Of a DNA stretch of 64,000 bases, positions 699-6,037 are shown piece by piece. The notes beneath the pieces were generated by a model. That model saw only the letters and a program-made list of their open reading frames with translations. It made no database searches and was not told where the DNA came from. This DNA is from Pelagibius sp. (GTDB lineage: Bacteria; Pseudomonadota; Alphaproteobacteria; Kiloniellales; Kiloniellaceae), in NCBI GenBank assembly GCA_028280305.1, contig JANQMC010000030.1:1-64000 (forward strand). Direction: 5' to 3'. The stretch's first letter is position 1, and each line of letters begins with the position of its first letter. A program made the translations under genes and the position numbers.

Positions 699-3600
699 TC
701 AGAAGAGATCGAAGTTGCCGTCCAGGACGAAGTCCAGGCGCCCCGACCGCCAGTCCTTCACCGTATCGCGCACCAGCGGCGACGGCGCCGTGCGATAGCG
801 GCGGACGATGGCGGAGTTGTCGGAATTGGCCTCCGCGACCGCTGCCTCCGCCTCGCGCGCGAGCTGCTTTCTGTCCGCCGGCGGTTCGCCATCCCCCTGC
901 GCGGTCACCAGGACATGCACCGTATCCCGGTCGAACTGCTTGGGCTTGCCGCTGGGACGTTCCTGAACGTGGAGCCCGGATTCCTGGGCCAGCAGGCCAA
1001 AGGCCCCATAGCCCGACACGGCGTAGAGCCGCCGATAGCTGCTCTCCGGGTCAGGCTGCGCGCCGTTCAGCCGCGTGATCCTCATGCGGCGCTTTTCACC
1101 CCAGGACTCGTACATGCCCGAAACCTTCTCGGCGAAGGCGCGAACCTCGTCGGCATCCTGCGTCCCGTCGAGCCTGGCCTCGACAAGCAGGAAGGCATCG
1201 TAGGGCCGGCCTTCCAGAACATCGCCGCAGGCCGCCTGCAGCAGATGCAGGTTCTCGGCAAGAACGGCGATCAGGTTTGCCGGGATGCTCCCTGCCTTGC
1301 CTCCGGCGCCGCTCTCCAGGCGGCGCAGCAGCGACCCGGCGCGATCGAGCCCGGATGTGATGCGGTCGATATACTCGGTGAGGCTCAGGGTCCCGAAGCG
1401 CTGCGGCGACGACCAGAAGTCCGGCGCGTTCATTTCATCGAGCGCCAGTTGCTTCAGCTCCCGCCATTGGGCGTTTTCAACGGTCTGCATCAAGGCTTCG
1501 TAGTGCCGCTTCAGAGTTGCCAGCTCCTCCCGGGTACCCTGGGGCTGCGCAAGGATGCTGCGCGGCGTCCTTTCACCCTCGACGTCGGTCTGTGCAGGCG
1601 CTTCGGCGTCCTTGGCACCGCCCGACGCTTCCGCGTTGGGGTCGACGAACTCCGTGGTCAGGCGATCCTCGCTGGCCGAGATGAACAGGAACTGATCGCT
1701 GTCGGGCACCTGGCGGCGCACGATGGTCAGGGCCAGCGGCGAGAGCAGGTAGCGTTCTATGGCCCGGCGCAGTGGCCTTGCCCCGAGATCCGGTGTGAAC
1801 CCCTTGTCCAGCAGGAACTCGATCGCGCTCTCGTCCCACTCCACCGCCCAGGTGCGGTTCTTCAGGCCGCGCCGCTGAAAGGCGTCCAACAGCTCCTTCT
1901 GCAGGATCTCGCGCATCAGGCTACGCGTAAGCGGGCGAAAGACAACCACACGGTCCAGGCGGTTGATGAACTCCTTGCGGAAGACCTTGTCCACCGAGCG
2001 CCGGACTTCCCGCGGATCGAAGGCTTGGTTCTTGTTGCCGAAGCCGATGGCGACGCCGGTGGGGATGGTGGCCCCGAGGTTCGATGTCAGGACGATGATG
2101 GTGTGGCGGAAGTCGACGGTCTGGCCGCGCCGGTCGGTGATCCGGGCATCGTCGAAAACCTGGAGAAAGAGATCCCAGGCCTTGGGATGGGCTTTCTCGA
2201 ATTCGTCCAGTAGGACGACGGAAAAGGGCTGCCGACGGATCTGATCGGCCAGGGAGTCGCCCTCTCCGGCTTCGGGCTGGCCCAAAAGCCGGTCGGTGCT
2301 CTCCGGGGTCTGCAGTTCGCTCATGTCGAGCCGGATCAGCCGTTGCGGGTCACCGAACAGCCACTCGGCCAGAGCCTTGGCCAGCTCGGTCTTGCCGGTT
2401 CCGGTCGGCCCGGCAAAGAGGAAAACGCCGACCGGCCGGGTCAGGTCGTTGACCCCCGCCTTCAGCATGGCGACCCGCTCGACCAGGCAGTCGACGGCTT
2501 CCGCCTGCCCGATGACCCGCTGAGACAAGCGGGTTCTCAGGGCATCCAGGTCCAGGTCGCGGCGCTGGTCGAGCACTTCGAGCGGCAGGCCCGACTGGGC
2601 CGCGAGGGTCACGATGAGATCGTCCAGGCCTATTTTCGGTTGGGTCCCACTGGCCAGCGTATCCAGCCGCCGGTGGGTCGACTCCAGGAGTCCCAGAAGA
2701 TTGCCGGGCGCGGCGCGGTCGCTGAGGTACTGCTGGCAGAGGTCCCAGGCCTGCTGGAGGAAGGTGCCGTCCCCCTTTGCCATCGAGACCGCCTGCCACT
2801 GGCCCGCGAGTTCCAGCGTCTCCTCCTTCGGCAAAGGCTCCAGACGCAGCGCCGAAAGCGCCGTCACGGTTCTGGGCTGCTGCAGGAGCAGCCGCTCGAA
2901 GGCGCGGGGATCGATCTCGCCGACCACCCGGATAAGCCCCTGTTCGACCATGGGAAGCAGGGCGTCCAGCGCACCCACGGGGCTGTAGCGGTGACGCCCG
3001 GCAAAGGCCAGACTGTGGAAGTCCGGGATCATCCAGACGACCCGGCGGCCGCTGCCGAGCTGCGCCAGGATCGCCTTGAGCTGCTCCTCGAACTCGCCGA
3101 TGTAGCTCTTGCCGGCAACCAGATCGTTGTGGCCGGCCACGAAGACCCGCCAGCCGGCCTCGTAGAGGCGTTTGGCGAGGCGGCTCAGCAATGCGGTCTT
3201 GCCGACGCCGCGCTCGCCGACCACCAGGAAGGACTGGGGATGCTTGGCGGTGAGCGCGCTTTCAAGCTGGTCGACCGCAGCGGCCAGCGGTGCATGCTCG
3301 ATGATGGCCTCGGCAAGCTGCGAATCGCGCTCGGACCAGAGACGCCCGGCAGACCGCAGCAAATCGTCGTCGACCCGCCTGGAGTCCCACTCTTCCAGCG
3401 CCTCGAGCAAGGGGCCCCCGACCTCCGCGTCGAGGGCGTTCAGGAACCTCTTCAGTTCCTTGATCGCCTCGTCGTCGGGCGTGCCTCCTTCGGCGCTGAA
3501 CACGGCGCGCTCGCCGTCGGCGAGACGCCGCTTGATGAATTGGATGAGAAATCCCCTGGACAGGCGGTAGTTCAGATAGTCGGTCGTCCGAAACAGTACC

Positions 3601-4076
3601 GGGCCAACGACCGCCTGCCCGGGTTCGCATTTCTCCTCCAGAAAGCGCAGCGCAAAGTACTGCGGCCAGGGCGCGATGGTGCCGACGCAGGCCAGCACCT
3701 CCGAAATGGCCTCGCCGCCGTCCTCGCGCTGCCGCAGGGCCTCCAGGGCAAAGCAGGAGATGATGGCGTTGTCGCCGGTGGCGAAGCTGATCAGGTCGTC
3801 GACGGAGAACTCCGGCCCTGAGAGCAGCCGCACCGCCTCTTTGAAGTCTTCGCTGCCTTCCGCCAGGTTGTCGGGATGCGAGGTCGCGCTGTAGAAGTCC
3901 GAGAGACGCCCGGCGATCGCATAGATGCCGGCGGCGGTGCCGCTGAGGGCGGTGCCGTCGCCGCCCTCCTTATTGTCCTGGGTCTTGGATTCCGCCTTGT
4001 CGATGTAGAGACCGAAGGCCACCACCGCGAAGATGACGGCCAGGCAAATCACGACCCCAAGTATGATGTTTTCCAA
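699..4076 (-). CDS. Membrane-anchored ClpB-like AAA+ ATPase fused to a release factor 2-like (PCRF) domain
   Basis: 1125 residues, longer than ClpB (about 860). Residues 5-23 form one N-terminal transmembrane helix. Residues 280-410 resemble ClpB D1: Walker A GERGVGKTAL (287-296) and pore-loop-like SYIGEFEEQL (324-333), but the Walker B segment reads VVWMIPDF with no DE, and the arginine-finger region is not conserved. Residues 520-790 are D2: Walker A GPTGTGKTEL (556-565), Walker B VVLLDEFEKAH, sensor TSNLG, GARPLRRAIER; the usual GYVGY pore loop is replaced by EAGEGD. Residues 850-1125 resemble RF2: NAPDFWSSPQ, MYESWGEKRR, SGYGAFGLLAQESGLH and the tail VLDGNFDLF. The GGQ domain between them is missing. 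The gene stands alone. Role unknown; I infer membrane-linked remodelling, perhaps connected with ribosomes. Confidence 0.85.
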   Translation of the reverse strand: MENIILGVVICLAVIFAVVAFGLYIDKAESKTQDNKEGGDGTALSGTAAGIYAIAGRLSDFYSATSHPDNLAEGSEDFKEAVRLLSGPEFSVDDLISFATGDNAIISCFALEALRQREDGGEAISEVLACVGTIAPWPQYFALRFLEEKCEPGQAVVGPVLFRTTDYLNYRLSRGFLIQFIKRRLADGERAVFSAEGGTPDDEAIKELKRFLNALDAEVGGPLLEALEEWDSRRVDDDLLRSAGRLWSERDSQLAEAIIEHAPLAAAVDQLESALTAKHPQSFLVVGERGVGKTALLSRLAKRLYEAGWRVFVAGHNDLVAGKSYIGEFEEQLKAILAQLGSGRRVVWMIPDFHSLAFAGRHRYSPVGALDALLPMVEQGLIRVVGEIDPRAFERLLLQQPRTVTALSALRLEPLPKEETLELAGQWQAVSMAKGDGTFLQQAWDLCQQYLSDRAAPGNLLGLLESTHRRLDTLASGTQPKIGLDDLIVTLAAQSGLPLEVLDQRRDLDLDALRTRLSQRVIGQAEAVDCLVERVAMLKAGVNDLTRPVGVFLFAGPTGTGKTELAKALAEWLFGDPQRLIRLDMSELQTPESTDRLLGQPEAGEGDSLADQIRRQPFSVVLLDEFEKAHPKAWDLFLQVFDDARITDRRGQTVDFRHTIIVLTSNLGATIPTGVAIGFGNKNQAFDPREVRRSVDKVFRKEFINRLDRVVVFRPLTRSLMREILQKELLDAFQRRGLKNRTWAVEWDESAIEFLLDKGFTPDLGARPLRRAIERYLLSPLALTIVRRQVPDSDQFLFISASEDRLTTEFVDPNAEASGGAKDAEAPAQTDVEGERTPRSILAQPQGTREELATLKRHYEALMQTVENAQWRELKQLALDEMNAPDFWSSPQRFGTLSLTEYIDRITSGLDRAGSLLRRLESGAGGKAGSIPANLIAVLAENLHLLQAACGDVLEGRPYDAFLLVEARLDGTQDADEVRAFAEKVSGMYESWGEKRRMRITRLNGAQPDPESSYRRLYAVSGYGAFGLLAQESGLHVQERPSGKPKQFDRDTVHVLVTAQGDGEPPADRKQLAREAEAAVAEANSDNSAIVRRYRTAPSPLVRDTVKDWRSGRLDFVLDGNFDLF

Positions 4077-4200: not shown

Positions 4201-4830
4201 TCAGAGGAATCGCGCCGCTTCTTCCAGGTCTTCCGGGCGGTTGGTGTTGAAGAAGGGGTCGAGGGGGCCGGCGGGGGTTTCCAGGTCCGGGAAGTCCACC
4301 TCCACCAGCCTGTGGCGGGCAGTCCAGCGGTCGACCTTGCGCATCTCCTCCTCCACCATGGCGCGGCGCAGATCCTCGCGCAGGCTTGAACGCCAGAGGC
4401 CGAAGACCGGGTGGGTGCGGCCGTGGGTGACGGCACAGGCAAGGTCCGCGCCCTCCGCTTCTACCGCCGCCATCATGCGGGCCACCAAGTCTTCCGGCAG
4501 AAATGGGGCATCGCAGGCGAAGCTGGCGAGCCATTCGGCCCCCGGCGCGTTCGCCGCCGCCCAATCCAGCCCGGTGAGGATGCCGGCCAGCGGCCCGGCG
4601 TAGCCCTCCACCACATCGGCGGCCACCGGCAGGCCAAAATCGTCAAAGCGGGCGGGATCGCCGTTAGCGTTCAGCACCAGGGCGCCCACCTGGGGCGCCG
4701 CCCGCTCGACGATGCGGGCGAGGATCGGCCGGCCACCCAGGCCCCGCAGGCACTTGTCGCCGCCGCCCATGCGCCGCGACAGCCCGCCGGCCAGCAGCAC
4801 TCCGGCCACCCTGTCCTTCTCAAATCCCAT
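4201..4830 (-). CDS. mobA: Molybdenum cofactor guanylyltransferase MobA
   Basis: 209 residues, normal for MobA. The enzyme transfers GMP from GTP to Mo-molybdopterin, making the guanine dinucleotide cofactor of formate dehydrogenase and related enzymes in the cytoplasm. The nucleotide-binding signature [14 protein letters not shown] lies at about residues 13-26. NANGDPARF and [17 protein letters not shown] follow, and the catalytic region FACDAPFLP is intact. It lies 17 bp downstream of fdhD on the same strand, so the two are probably cotranscribed; both serve molybdoenzyme maturation. The ATG start at 4830 gives a full N-terminal Rossmann strand. Confidence 0.93.
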
Positions 4831-4847
4831 GGGATGCGTTCAGGTCC

Positions 4848-5831
4848 TCACGCCGCGTCGTCGGCACGGCCGGCTTTGCGCTGGTGGCGCGGGTCTTCGT
4901 CTTCCAGGCTCTTGGGGTCGTGGTCGAAGACCAGGCGCTCCTCCCCCGCCAGGGCGACGAAGCGCTTGCCCTTGGCACGACCCACCAGCGTCAATCCGGC
5001 CTGGCGCGCCAGGTCCACTCCCCAAGCGGTGAAGCCGGAACGGGAGACCAGGATGGGAATGCCCATCTGCACCGTCTTGATCACCATCTCAGAGGTCAGG
5101 CGTCCGGTGGTGTAAAAGATCTTGTCGTCCGGCGCGATACCGTGGCGCAGCATATAACCGGCGATCTTGTCGACCGCATTGTGACGCCCGACGTCTTCCA
5201 TGTAGAGCAGCGGCCGGTCGCCCTGGCAAAGCACGCAGCCGTGGATCGCGCCGGCCTCCAGATAGAGGCTGGGAACGGCGTTGATCTTCTTCGACAGGTT
5301 CACCAGCCAGGAAGTCTTCAGCATCGCGTCCTGCGGCAGGGCAACGGTCTCGAACTTCTCCATCAGATCCCCGAAGACGGTACCCTGGGCGCAGCCGGAG
5401 GTGCGCACCTTCTTCTTCAGTTTTTCCTCGTAGTTCGTCTCGCGCTCGGTGCGCACCACGACGACGTCCAGTTCCTCGTCGAAGTCGACGCCCTCGATCA
5501 CGTCGTCCGGGCGCAGCATGTTCTGGTTCAGCAGATAGCCCAGCGCCAGATAGTCCGGATAGTCGCCGATGGTCATCATGGTGACGATCTCCTGCCCGTT
5601 CAGGAACAGGGTCAGGGGCCGCTCGACCACAACCGCGGTTTCGATGGCCGTGCCATCCTGATCGACGCCGGCGATGCGTTCGGTCAGGCGCGGGTCCGCC
5701 GGGTCCGGGCGCAGCGCGAACTCGCCGAGCAGCGCCGGGTCCACCGCCTTTGCTTTTCCCTTGCGCAGTTGTTTCACCGCCATCCCTTTCATCGGCGCCC
5801 TGCCTTCTTTCGCCACTGCCTTTTCGGCCAT
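4848..5831 (-). CDS. fdhD: Formate dehydrogenase accessory sulfurtransferase FdhD
   Basis: 327 residues from the ATG at 5831, chosen because GGGAGG lies 8 bases upstream; an in-frame TTG at 5888 has no such site. FdhD carries sulfur from a cysteine desulfurase to the molybdenum cofactor of formate dehydrogenase. Recognisable segments are ERPLTLFLNGQEIVTMM, GYLLNQ, RTSGCAQGTVFGDLM (Cys about 147), GAIHGCVLCQGDRPLLYMED, VGRHNAVDKIAGY and TTGRLTSEMVIKTVQMGIP. The E. coli protein has a CXXC pair in the active loop; here the equivalent is a single Cys followed by AQG, with further Cys in the GCVLC segment. It is followed at 17 bp by mobA. No formate dehydrogenase subunit is in the window. Confidence 0.93.
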   Translation of the reverse strand: MAEKAVAKEGRAPMKGMAVKQLRKGKAKAVDPALLGEFALRPDPADPRLTERIAGVDQDGTAIETAVVVERPLTLFLNGQEIVTMMTIGDYPDYLALGYLLNQNMLRPDDVIEGVDFDEELDVVVVRTERETNYEEKLKKKVRTSGCAQGTVFGDLMEKFETVALPQDAMLKTSWLVNLSKKINAVPSLYLEAGAIHGCVLCQGDRPLLYMEDVGRHNAVDKIAGYMLRHGIAPDDKIFYTTGRLTSEMVIKTVQMGIPILVSRSGFTAWGVDLARQAGLTLVGRAKGKRFVALAGEERLVFDHDPKSLEDEDPRHQRKAGRADDAA

Positions 5832-6037
5832 GGACAATCCTCCCAACGATCTGTTCTCGAATATGGAGCCCGCAGCCGCCGACCACAAGCCGACGACCGA
5901 GAAATCGCTTTAAGAGTTCCGTTTCATTAATGAATATCAAATGATTATAGGGGATTCTTCGAGCCATGAAATTGACGTTTTCGAGTGACGCCTGCGCGGA
6001 CCTTGGTGGCCTTCGACGGCCCCGCTATAAGGTTGTC

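Follow-up and report, generated by a model that had tools for sequence, protein, structure and literature searches.

The window (the whole stretch of 64,000 nucleotides analysed here) carries on its minus strand a gene for a protein of 1125 amino acids in which a two-ring Clp/Hsp100 ATPase is fused to the body of a bacterial release factor. Sequence profiles and the predicted structure identify its C-terminal domain as domains 1, 2 and 4 of release factor 2 (RF2) without domain 3. Proteins with this fusion make up a new Clp ATPase subfamily in which an RF2 body has been repurposed. Its conservation in about ten phyla, with the RF2 body kept and neither catalysis nor decoding retained, points to a second use of the RF2 scaffold, and the fusion may couple the ribosome to the unfolding or degradation of proteins. 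To our knowledge, no fusion of a Clp unfoldase with a release factor is known in bacteria. No description of a Clp–RF2 fusion was found in the open-access full-text literature, an earlier report elsewhere being possible, and a review of release-factor evolution does not mention Clp (PMC6514570).

The sequence GGGAGG, which resembles a ribosome-binding site, is found directly upstream of the TTG start. The gene is laid out as follows:

4076-699, minus strand: whole gene, 1125 aa, TTG start, TGA stop at 701-699
4011..4070, minus strand: N-terminal transmembrane helix, residues 3-22 (hydropathy 3.12 over 19 residues; helix 2-30 in the model)
3348..3953, minus strand: all-helical N-terminal domain, residues 42-243 (AlphaFold model; poorly conserved)
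2655..3293, minus strand: AAA+ ring D1, residues 262-474 (Walker A GERGVGKT kept, Walker B degenerate, YIG aromatic kept)
3096..3104, minus strand: D1 pore loop Y-I-G, residues 325-327 (aromatic-x-Gly in 71/72 members)
1641..2549, minus strand: AAA+ ring D2 and small domain, residues 510-812 (Pfam and alignment)
2040..2048, minus strand: I-G-F tripeptide, residues 677-679, candidate ClpP-docking loop (aligns with the IGF of ClpA from the same genome)
1566..1640, minus strand: flexible linker, residues 813-837 (pLDDT <50 at 818-833)
1212..1565, minus strand: RF2 domain 1-like helical bundle, residues 838-955 (RF2-specific FW motif)
891..1211, minus strand: RF2 domain 2-like (PCRF) core, residues 956-1062 (MYESW, SGYGA, ESGLH; no SPF, no GGxE tip)
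810..890, minus strand: short helical linker, residues 1063-1089, in the place of RF2 domain 3 with GGQ
702..809, minus strand: RF2 post-GGQ strand and domain 4 tail, residues 1090-1125: IVRRYRTAPSPLVRDTVKDWRSGRLDFVLDGNFDLF

Pfam matches are AAA_2 (547-709), ClpB_D2-small (716-795) and PCRF (976-1040). A search of the N-terminal helical domain (42-243) against PDB sequences gave no relative. The membrane helix, already noted in the preliminary description, is present in this protein, but it is not a property of the whole family, since a TM-like N-terminal helix is found in 44 of 64 testable members. Comparison with a 96%-identical relative in another genome indicates purifying selection, with a dN/dS of about 0.08 over residues 353-1125 and of 0.12 in the RF part.

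The relationship of the C-terminal domain to RF2, first proposed by eye, is borderline for the single sequence and decisive with a profile of its relatives. Alone, the protein scores 23.4 bits against Pfam PCRF (cut-off 24, E 5.9e-5), and NCBIfam prfB matches residues 958-1052 with an E of 7e-7; PCRF is found individually in 41 of 45 family members. A profile of the C-terminal domain was built from 56 relatives and searched against 177,635 distinct PDB sequences. Its top match is E. coli RF2 (E 1.3e-18), and all 41 significant matches are RF2 or RF1, with scores of about 70 bits for E. coli RF2 and of at most about 49 for RF1. Alignment with genuine RF2s by hhalign gives a probability of 98.5% and an E of 2e-15 over 237 columns.

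The predicted structure leads to the same assignment. The AlphaFold model of the C-terminal domain has a pLDDT of 94.6, and the best 50 Foldseek matches to it are all RF2 or RF1 chains. Superposition on RF2, proposed earlier as a check, covers domains 1, 2 and 4 of the free E. coli protein (1gqe), with a VIA-align Z of 19.8 over 265 residues and model residues 9-288 lying on RF2 residues 5-356. The two outcomes named beforehand as refuting, lack of any PCRF or RF2 match and lack of fold similarity to RF domains 1, 2 and 4, are both absent. Domain 3 of release factors, which bears GGQ, is an insertion in the codon-recognition domain (PMC6514570). In the C-terminal domain studied here it is swapped for a short helical linker; in the joint MAFFT alignment the region around this lost domain is wrongly placed, so residue-level statements there are drawn from the fold only.

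Residues of the RF2 fold core are invariant or nearly so in 21 sampled members. These include the M, Y and W of MYxRW, the G and A of GxxA, the L, E, G and H of SGVH, the R and Y of IRSY, the P, V and D, and the VLxGDxD tail. Several of the shared features are specific to RF2 and absent from RF1, namely the FW of domain 1, the W of MYxRW (Y or F in RF1) and the P-x-x-x-V-[KR]-D spacing. The functional elements are gone. In the same 21 members the columns of the GGxE tip of helix alpha-5, of the R after GVH and of SPF carry no conservation; SPF is found in 0 of 71 relatives, and the absence of GGQ noticed in the 1125-residue protein extends to all 71 relatives, none of which has GGQ at the corresponding site. 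The letters GGQ occur elsewhere in 3 relatives, by chance. Because domain 3 and GGQ are missing, the family would be unable to hydrolyse peptidyl-tRNA by the RF2 mechanism, as the preliminary description had supposed. Because SPF and the GGxE tip are lost, it should also be unable to read a stop codon, judging from RF2 function (PMC5378476), and RF2-style docking on a stop codon would therefore be impossible. Judged by the absence of GGQ and of the decoding elements from its sequence, the 1125-residue protein is not a release factor. The family has a C-terminal motif of its own, RRYRxxPSPLVRD-WRTGRLDRVL-GDFDL, in place of IRSY-VKDLRTG-VLDGDLD in RF2. Over the same domains the median net charge is 0 in the family and -11.5 and -15 in RF1/RF2, which gives no clear indication for or against RNA binding.

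Alignment with ClpA and ClpB from the same genome shows two AAA+ modules. In D1, the Walker A lysine is kept in 70 of 72 members while the DE pair of Walker B (hhhhDE) is kept in none (0/72). D2 looks catalytically complete: Walker B, the sensors and the arginine finger are present in 72/72 and GPTGTGKT in 71/72, and in the 1125-residue protein Walker A and B, sensors 1 and 2 and the arginine finger are all intact. In its D2 pore loop the GYVG aromatic is missing, and 63 of the 72 members, this protein included, have no aromatic there. At the docking-loop site the protein reads AIGFGNKN versus AIGFGREN in ClpA of the same genome, and nothing similar is present in its ClpB. The tripeptide (L/I/V)-G-(F/L) in this loop is the ClpP-docking motif (PMC8745299). 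Across the family GF is invariant (72/72), and the residue before it is L, I or V in 44 members and P in 19; the loop containing IGF (675-683) is predicted to be disordered in the model, as flexible docking loops are. Among the structures closest to the full-length model are ClpC-ClpP, ClpB and ClpAP subunits. By the curated NCBIfam cut-offs the protein is neither ClpA nor ClpB, its scores lying far below them (311 versus 993 and 320 versus 1232 bits), and Clp_N is not among the 25 Pfam matches listed for the protein or the family. The ATPase was at first called ClpB-like. The assignment to the two-ring Clp/Hsp100 AAA+ proteins stands, but the layout is nearer to ClpA than to ClpB, because the IGF loop is present and alignment with ClpB of the same genome reveals no coiled-coil M-domain of the ClpB type.

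The question raised earlier, whether the fusion occurs in other genomes, is answered by 71 near-full-length relatives with the same fusion in about ten phyla; 80 loci were kept from the genome scan. The relatives are labelled as Pseudomonadota, Acidobacteriota, Planctomycetota, Deltaproteobacteria/Myxococcota, Bacteroidota, Gemmatimonadota, Krumholzibacteriota, Latescibacterota, Eisenbacteria, Thermoleophilia and one Bacillota bin, where some bins may be mislabelled and the tree covers nine groups. The fusion gene is a sporadic single gene; culturable carriers include Lysobacter antibioticus, Luteimonas and Inquilinus limosus. With the own genome counted, it is found in 4 of 61 genomes of the order and 2 of 8 of the genus; it is found in 6 of 8 genomes of one other genus and in 1 of 298 other Pseudomonadota genomes. 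A PCRF profile search of the own genome returns RF1, RF2 and the 1125-residue gene, the RF1 and RF2 being distinguished by inspection of the two ORFs. Ordinary RF1 and RF2 accompany the fusion gene in most of 14 carrier genomes: 13 have two ordinary PCRF genes of RF size or one member of such a pair, and 12 give three PCRF matches with the fusion family member among them. Each of the 15 genomes examined for ClpP has a gene for it. In the unrooted tree the family, RF1 and RF2 form one clade each, the family on a long branch, so that the RF1/RF2 tree gains a third clade, one without domain 3. An origin from RF2 is suggested by the shared signatures and the profile scores; nesting within RF2 is not demonstrated by this unrooted tree with its long family branch.

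Flanking genes were compared by clustering of ORFs, only part of which were identified. This gave no generally conserved neighbour and no recurrent translation or protease genes. In Lysobacteraceae and their relatives alone, the upstream neighbour is a mutS-like ORF. Matches to PADLOC defence models are confined to generic AAA regions, with no recurrent neighbours among the clustered flanking ORFs, and the phage and plasmid collections contain no match to the fusion gene.

Our preferred reading, put forward tentatively as a good possibility that falls short of a probability, is that the protein is a ClpA-like unfoldase whose RF2 body serves as a docking arm for ribosome-linked unfolding or degradation. 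It would form a hexameric, often membrane-anchored ring, the hexamer being assumed from the Clp family, in which D2 would hydrolyse ATP and D1 would grip the substrate. The RF2 body would release no peptides and read no stop codons. On its flexible tether it could carry the unfoldase to ribosomes or translation complexes, docking via domain 1 and by fitting, independently of the codon, into an empty A site or close to it. The x-G-F loop would couple the protein to ClpP, which is probably its partner, and overall the protein would clear or remodel nascent chains or stuck proteins in connection with the ribosome. Contact with the ribosome or mimicry of a release factor, as suggested in the preliminary description, is plausible, and the ribosome is the likeliest target, although this is a guess. 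It is a natural one because RF2 binds the L11 stalk through its domain 1 and, together with ArfA, can occupy the A site without using SPF (PMC5378476).

Much of the above is consistent with a ribosome-docked unfoldase: homology to RF2 by profile, fold and RF2-specific residues, retention of the fold core with loss of the function residues (GGxE, the R of GVHR, SPF and GGQ), RF1 and RF2 also present in most carrier genomes, and the precedents of SPF-independent A-site occupancy and of L11-stalk binding by domain 1 (PMC5378476). The coupling to ClpP is favoured by the xGF loop, which is in the canonical form in 44/72 members and is aligned with IGF of the own ClpA while absent from the own ClpB, by the resemblance of the full-length model to the ClpC/ClpP and ClpAP complexes, and by ClpP in every genome checked. 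Other observations do not fit so well. The decoding contacts of RF2 (SPF and the alpha-5 tip) are gone, no translation or protease genes recur nearby, and P-G-F replaces the canonical tripeptide in 19/72. Strong threading into ClpP is doubtful because the pore-loop aromatic of known Clp threaders is missing from D2 in 63/72, and the large C-terminal domain may sit on the face of the ring that would be turned towards ClpP.

A serious though somewhat doubtful alternative is that the RF2 body was taken over as a stable module for binding proteins and that its present partner is not the ribosome but, for instance, an adaptor or a substrate of the unfoldase. Such a module would agree with a fold core kept while decoding and catalytic motifs were lost, with the family motif RRYRxxPSPLVRD-WRTGR-DxVL-GDFD in place of the RF2 motif, with a median net charge of 0 rather than -11.5 and -15, and with the lack of conserved translation neighbours. 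However, across great divergence the family has kept domain 1 and the entire 2/4 superdomain, beyond the needs of a generic module, and the new motif largely overlaps IRSY...VKDLRTG of RF2 itself. It is quite unlikely that the protein acts like Pelota/Dom34, as a dead release factor that binds ribosomes stalled with the A site empty and whose own ATPase splits the ribosome or ejects the complex independently of ClpP. The logic of a GGQ-less release factor joined to an ATPase is the same, the D2 catalytic set is intact and the missing pore aromatic speaks against classic threading into ClpP, but the invariant xGF loop lies at the ClpP-docking position and a presumed hexamer would bring six RF bodies to one A site. 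Very improbable is a regulator of termination, which would compete with or sequester RF2 or its partners (RF3, PrmC) or unfold release factors. PrmC acts on the glutamine of GGQ. This target is gone along with GGQ, and a sporadic distribution (1/298 other Pseudomonadota genomes) ill suits a core regulator, although the domain 1 used by RF2 at the L11 stalk is present (PMC5378476). A chance resemblance to RF2, or a fusion created by assembly, can be practically discounted. The single-sequence PCRF score lies slightly below its curated cut-off, but the family profile, the fold and the family conservation under selection rule out chance; an artefact is ruled out by the same fusion on 71 contigs and in a second genome of the genus, and by the 96%-identical copy in another genome.

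On the ribosome-docked reading, the fusion protein is a concrete candidate, open to test, for a protein that physically and directly connects the bacterial ribosome with an unfoldase or protease. Drawn further by analogy, it would describe a machine in one polypeptide, in which an RF2 body that is dead and blind to codons attaches a ClpP-coupled AAA+ ring to ribosomes that have stalled or whose A site is empty, a counterpart of Cdc48-Vms1 and Pelota arisen independently from RF2. We regard this extended form as unlikely. Cdc48-Vms1, an unfoldase with an RF-like factor, and Dom34/Pelota, a catalytically dead release factor on stalled ribosomes, are working analogies only (PMC5989216, PMC6514570). 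In contrast to the bacterial fusion, they are eukaryotic or archaeal, consist of separate polypeptides and use the unrelated RF fold of the aeRF1 superfamily.

Among bacterial proteins, RF2 (PrfB) shares with the fusion protein the fold of domains 1, 2 and 4, the core residues and the RF2-specific signatures, whereas the fusion protein has no domain 3 with GGQ, no SPF and no GGxE tip and is joined to a Clp ATPase; relative to RF1 and RF2 its family is a separate clade in the unrooted tree. With ClpA and ClpC, the Hsp100 partners of ClpP, it has in common the two AAA+ modules, the lack of an M-domain, the D2 catalytic set and the GF loop, but it has lost the D1 Walker B and the D2 pore aromatic and carries in addition a TM helix and the RF2 body. 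PrfH is a standalone protein of the release-factor type. This divergent relative of the bacterial class-I release factors, solved on damaged ribosomes, matches the fold in part (Z ~10), while the fusion protein differs from it in having no catalytic domain and an ATPase attached.

The Clp–RF2 fusion gene is flanked in the window by the following ORFs:
4201–5888, (-) strand, ORFs judged by eye to be MobA-like and FdhD-like
1–567, (-) strand, ORF similar to a PhnD-type periplasmic binding protein, continuing past the window edge

The MobA-like and FdhD-like ORFs lie immediately upstream of the fusion gene on the same strand and end 124 bases before its start. Possibly they form a single transcript with it. 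Relatives do not share this arrangement. The PhnD-type-like ORF is located downstream, as it also is in the sister genome (L005), and one is observed in the vicinity of the fusion gene at locus L044.

Clustering of the flanking ORFs reveals a mutS-like ORF upstream of the fusion gene at 12 loci from Lysobacteraceae and relatives (L056, L058, L060, L062, L064, L066, L068, L069, L081, L082, L091, and L092). The same clustering places neighbor family cluster 11 at all of L099, L100, L102, and L104, divergent and mostly planctomycete members of the fusion family, which retain KLVDLRQG or KLVNL, nearer to the MVKDLRTG motif of RF2. At L033 and L035, the reading frame is interrupted inside the AAA or RF part, which could be caused by sequencing errors or decay.
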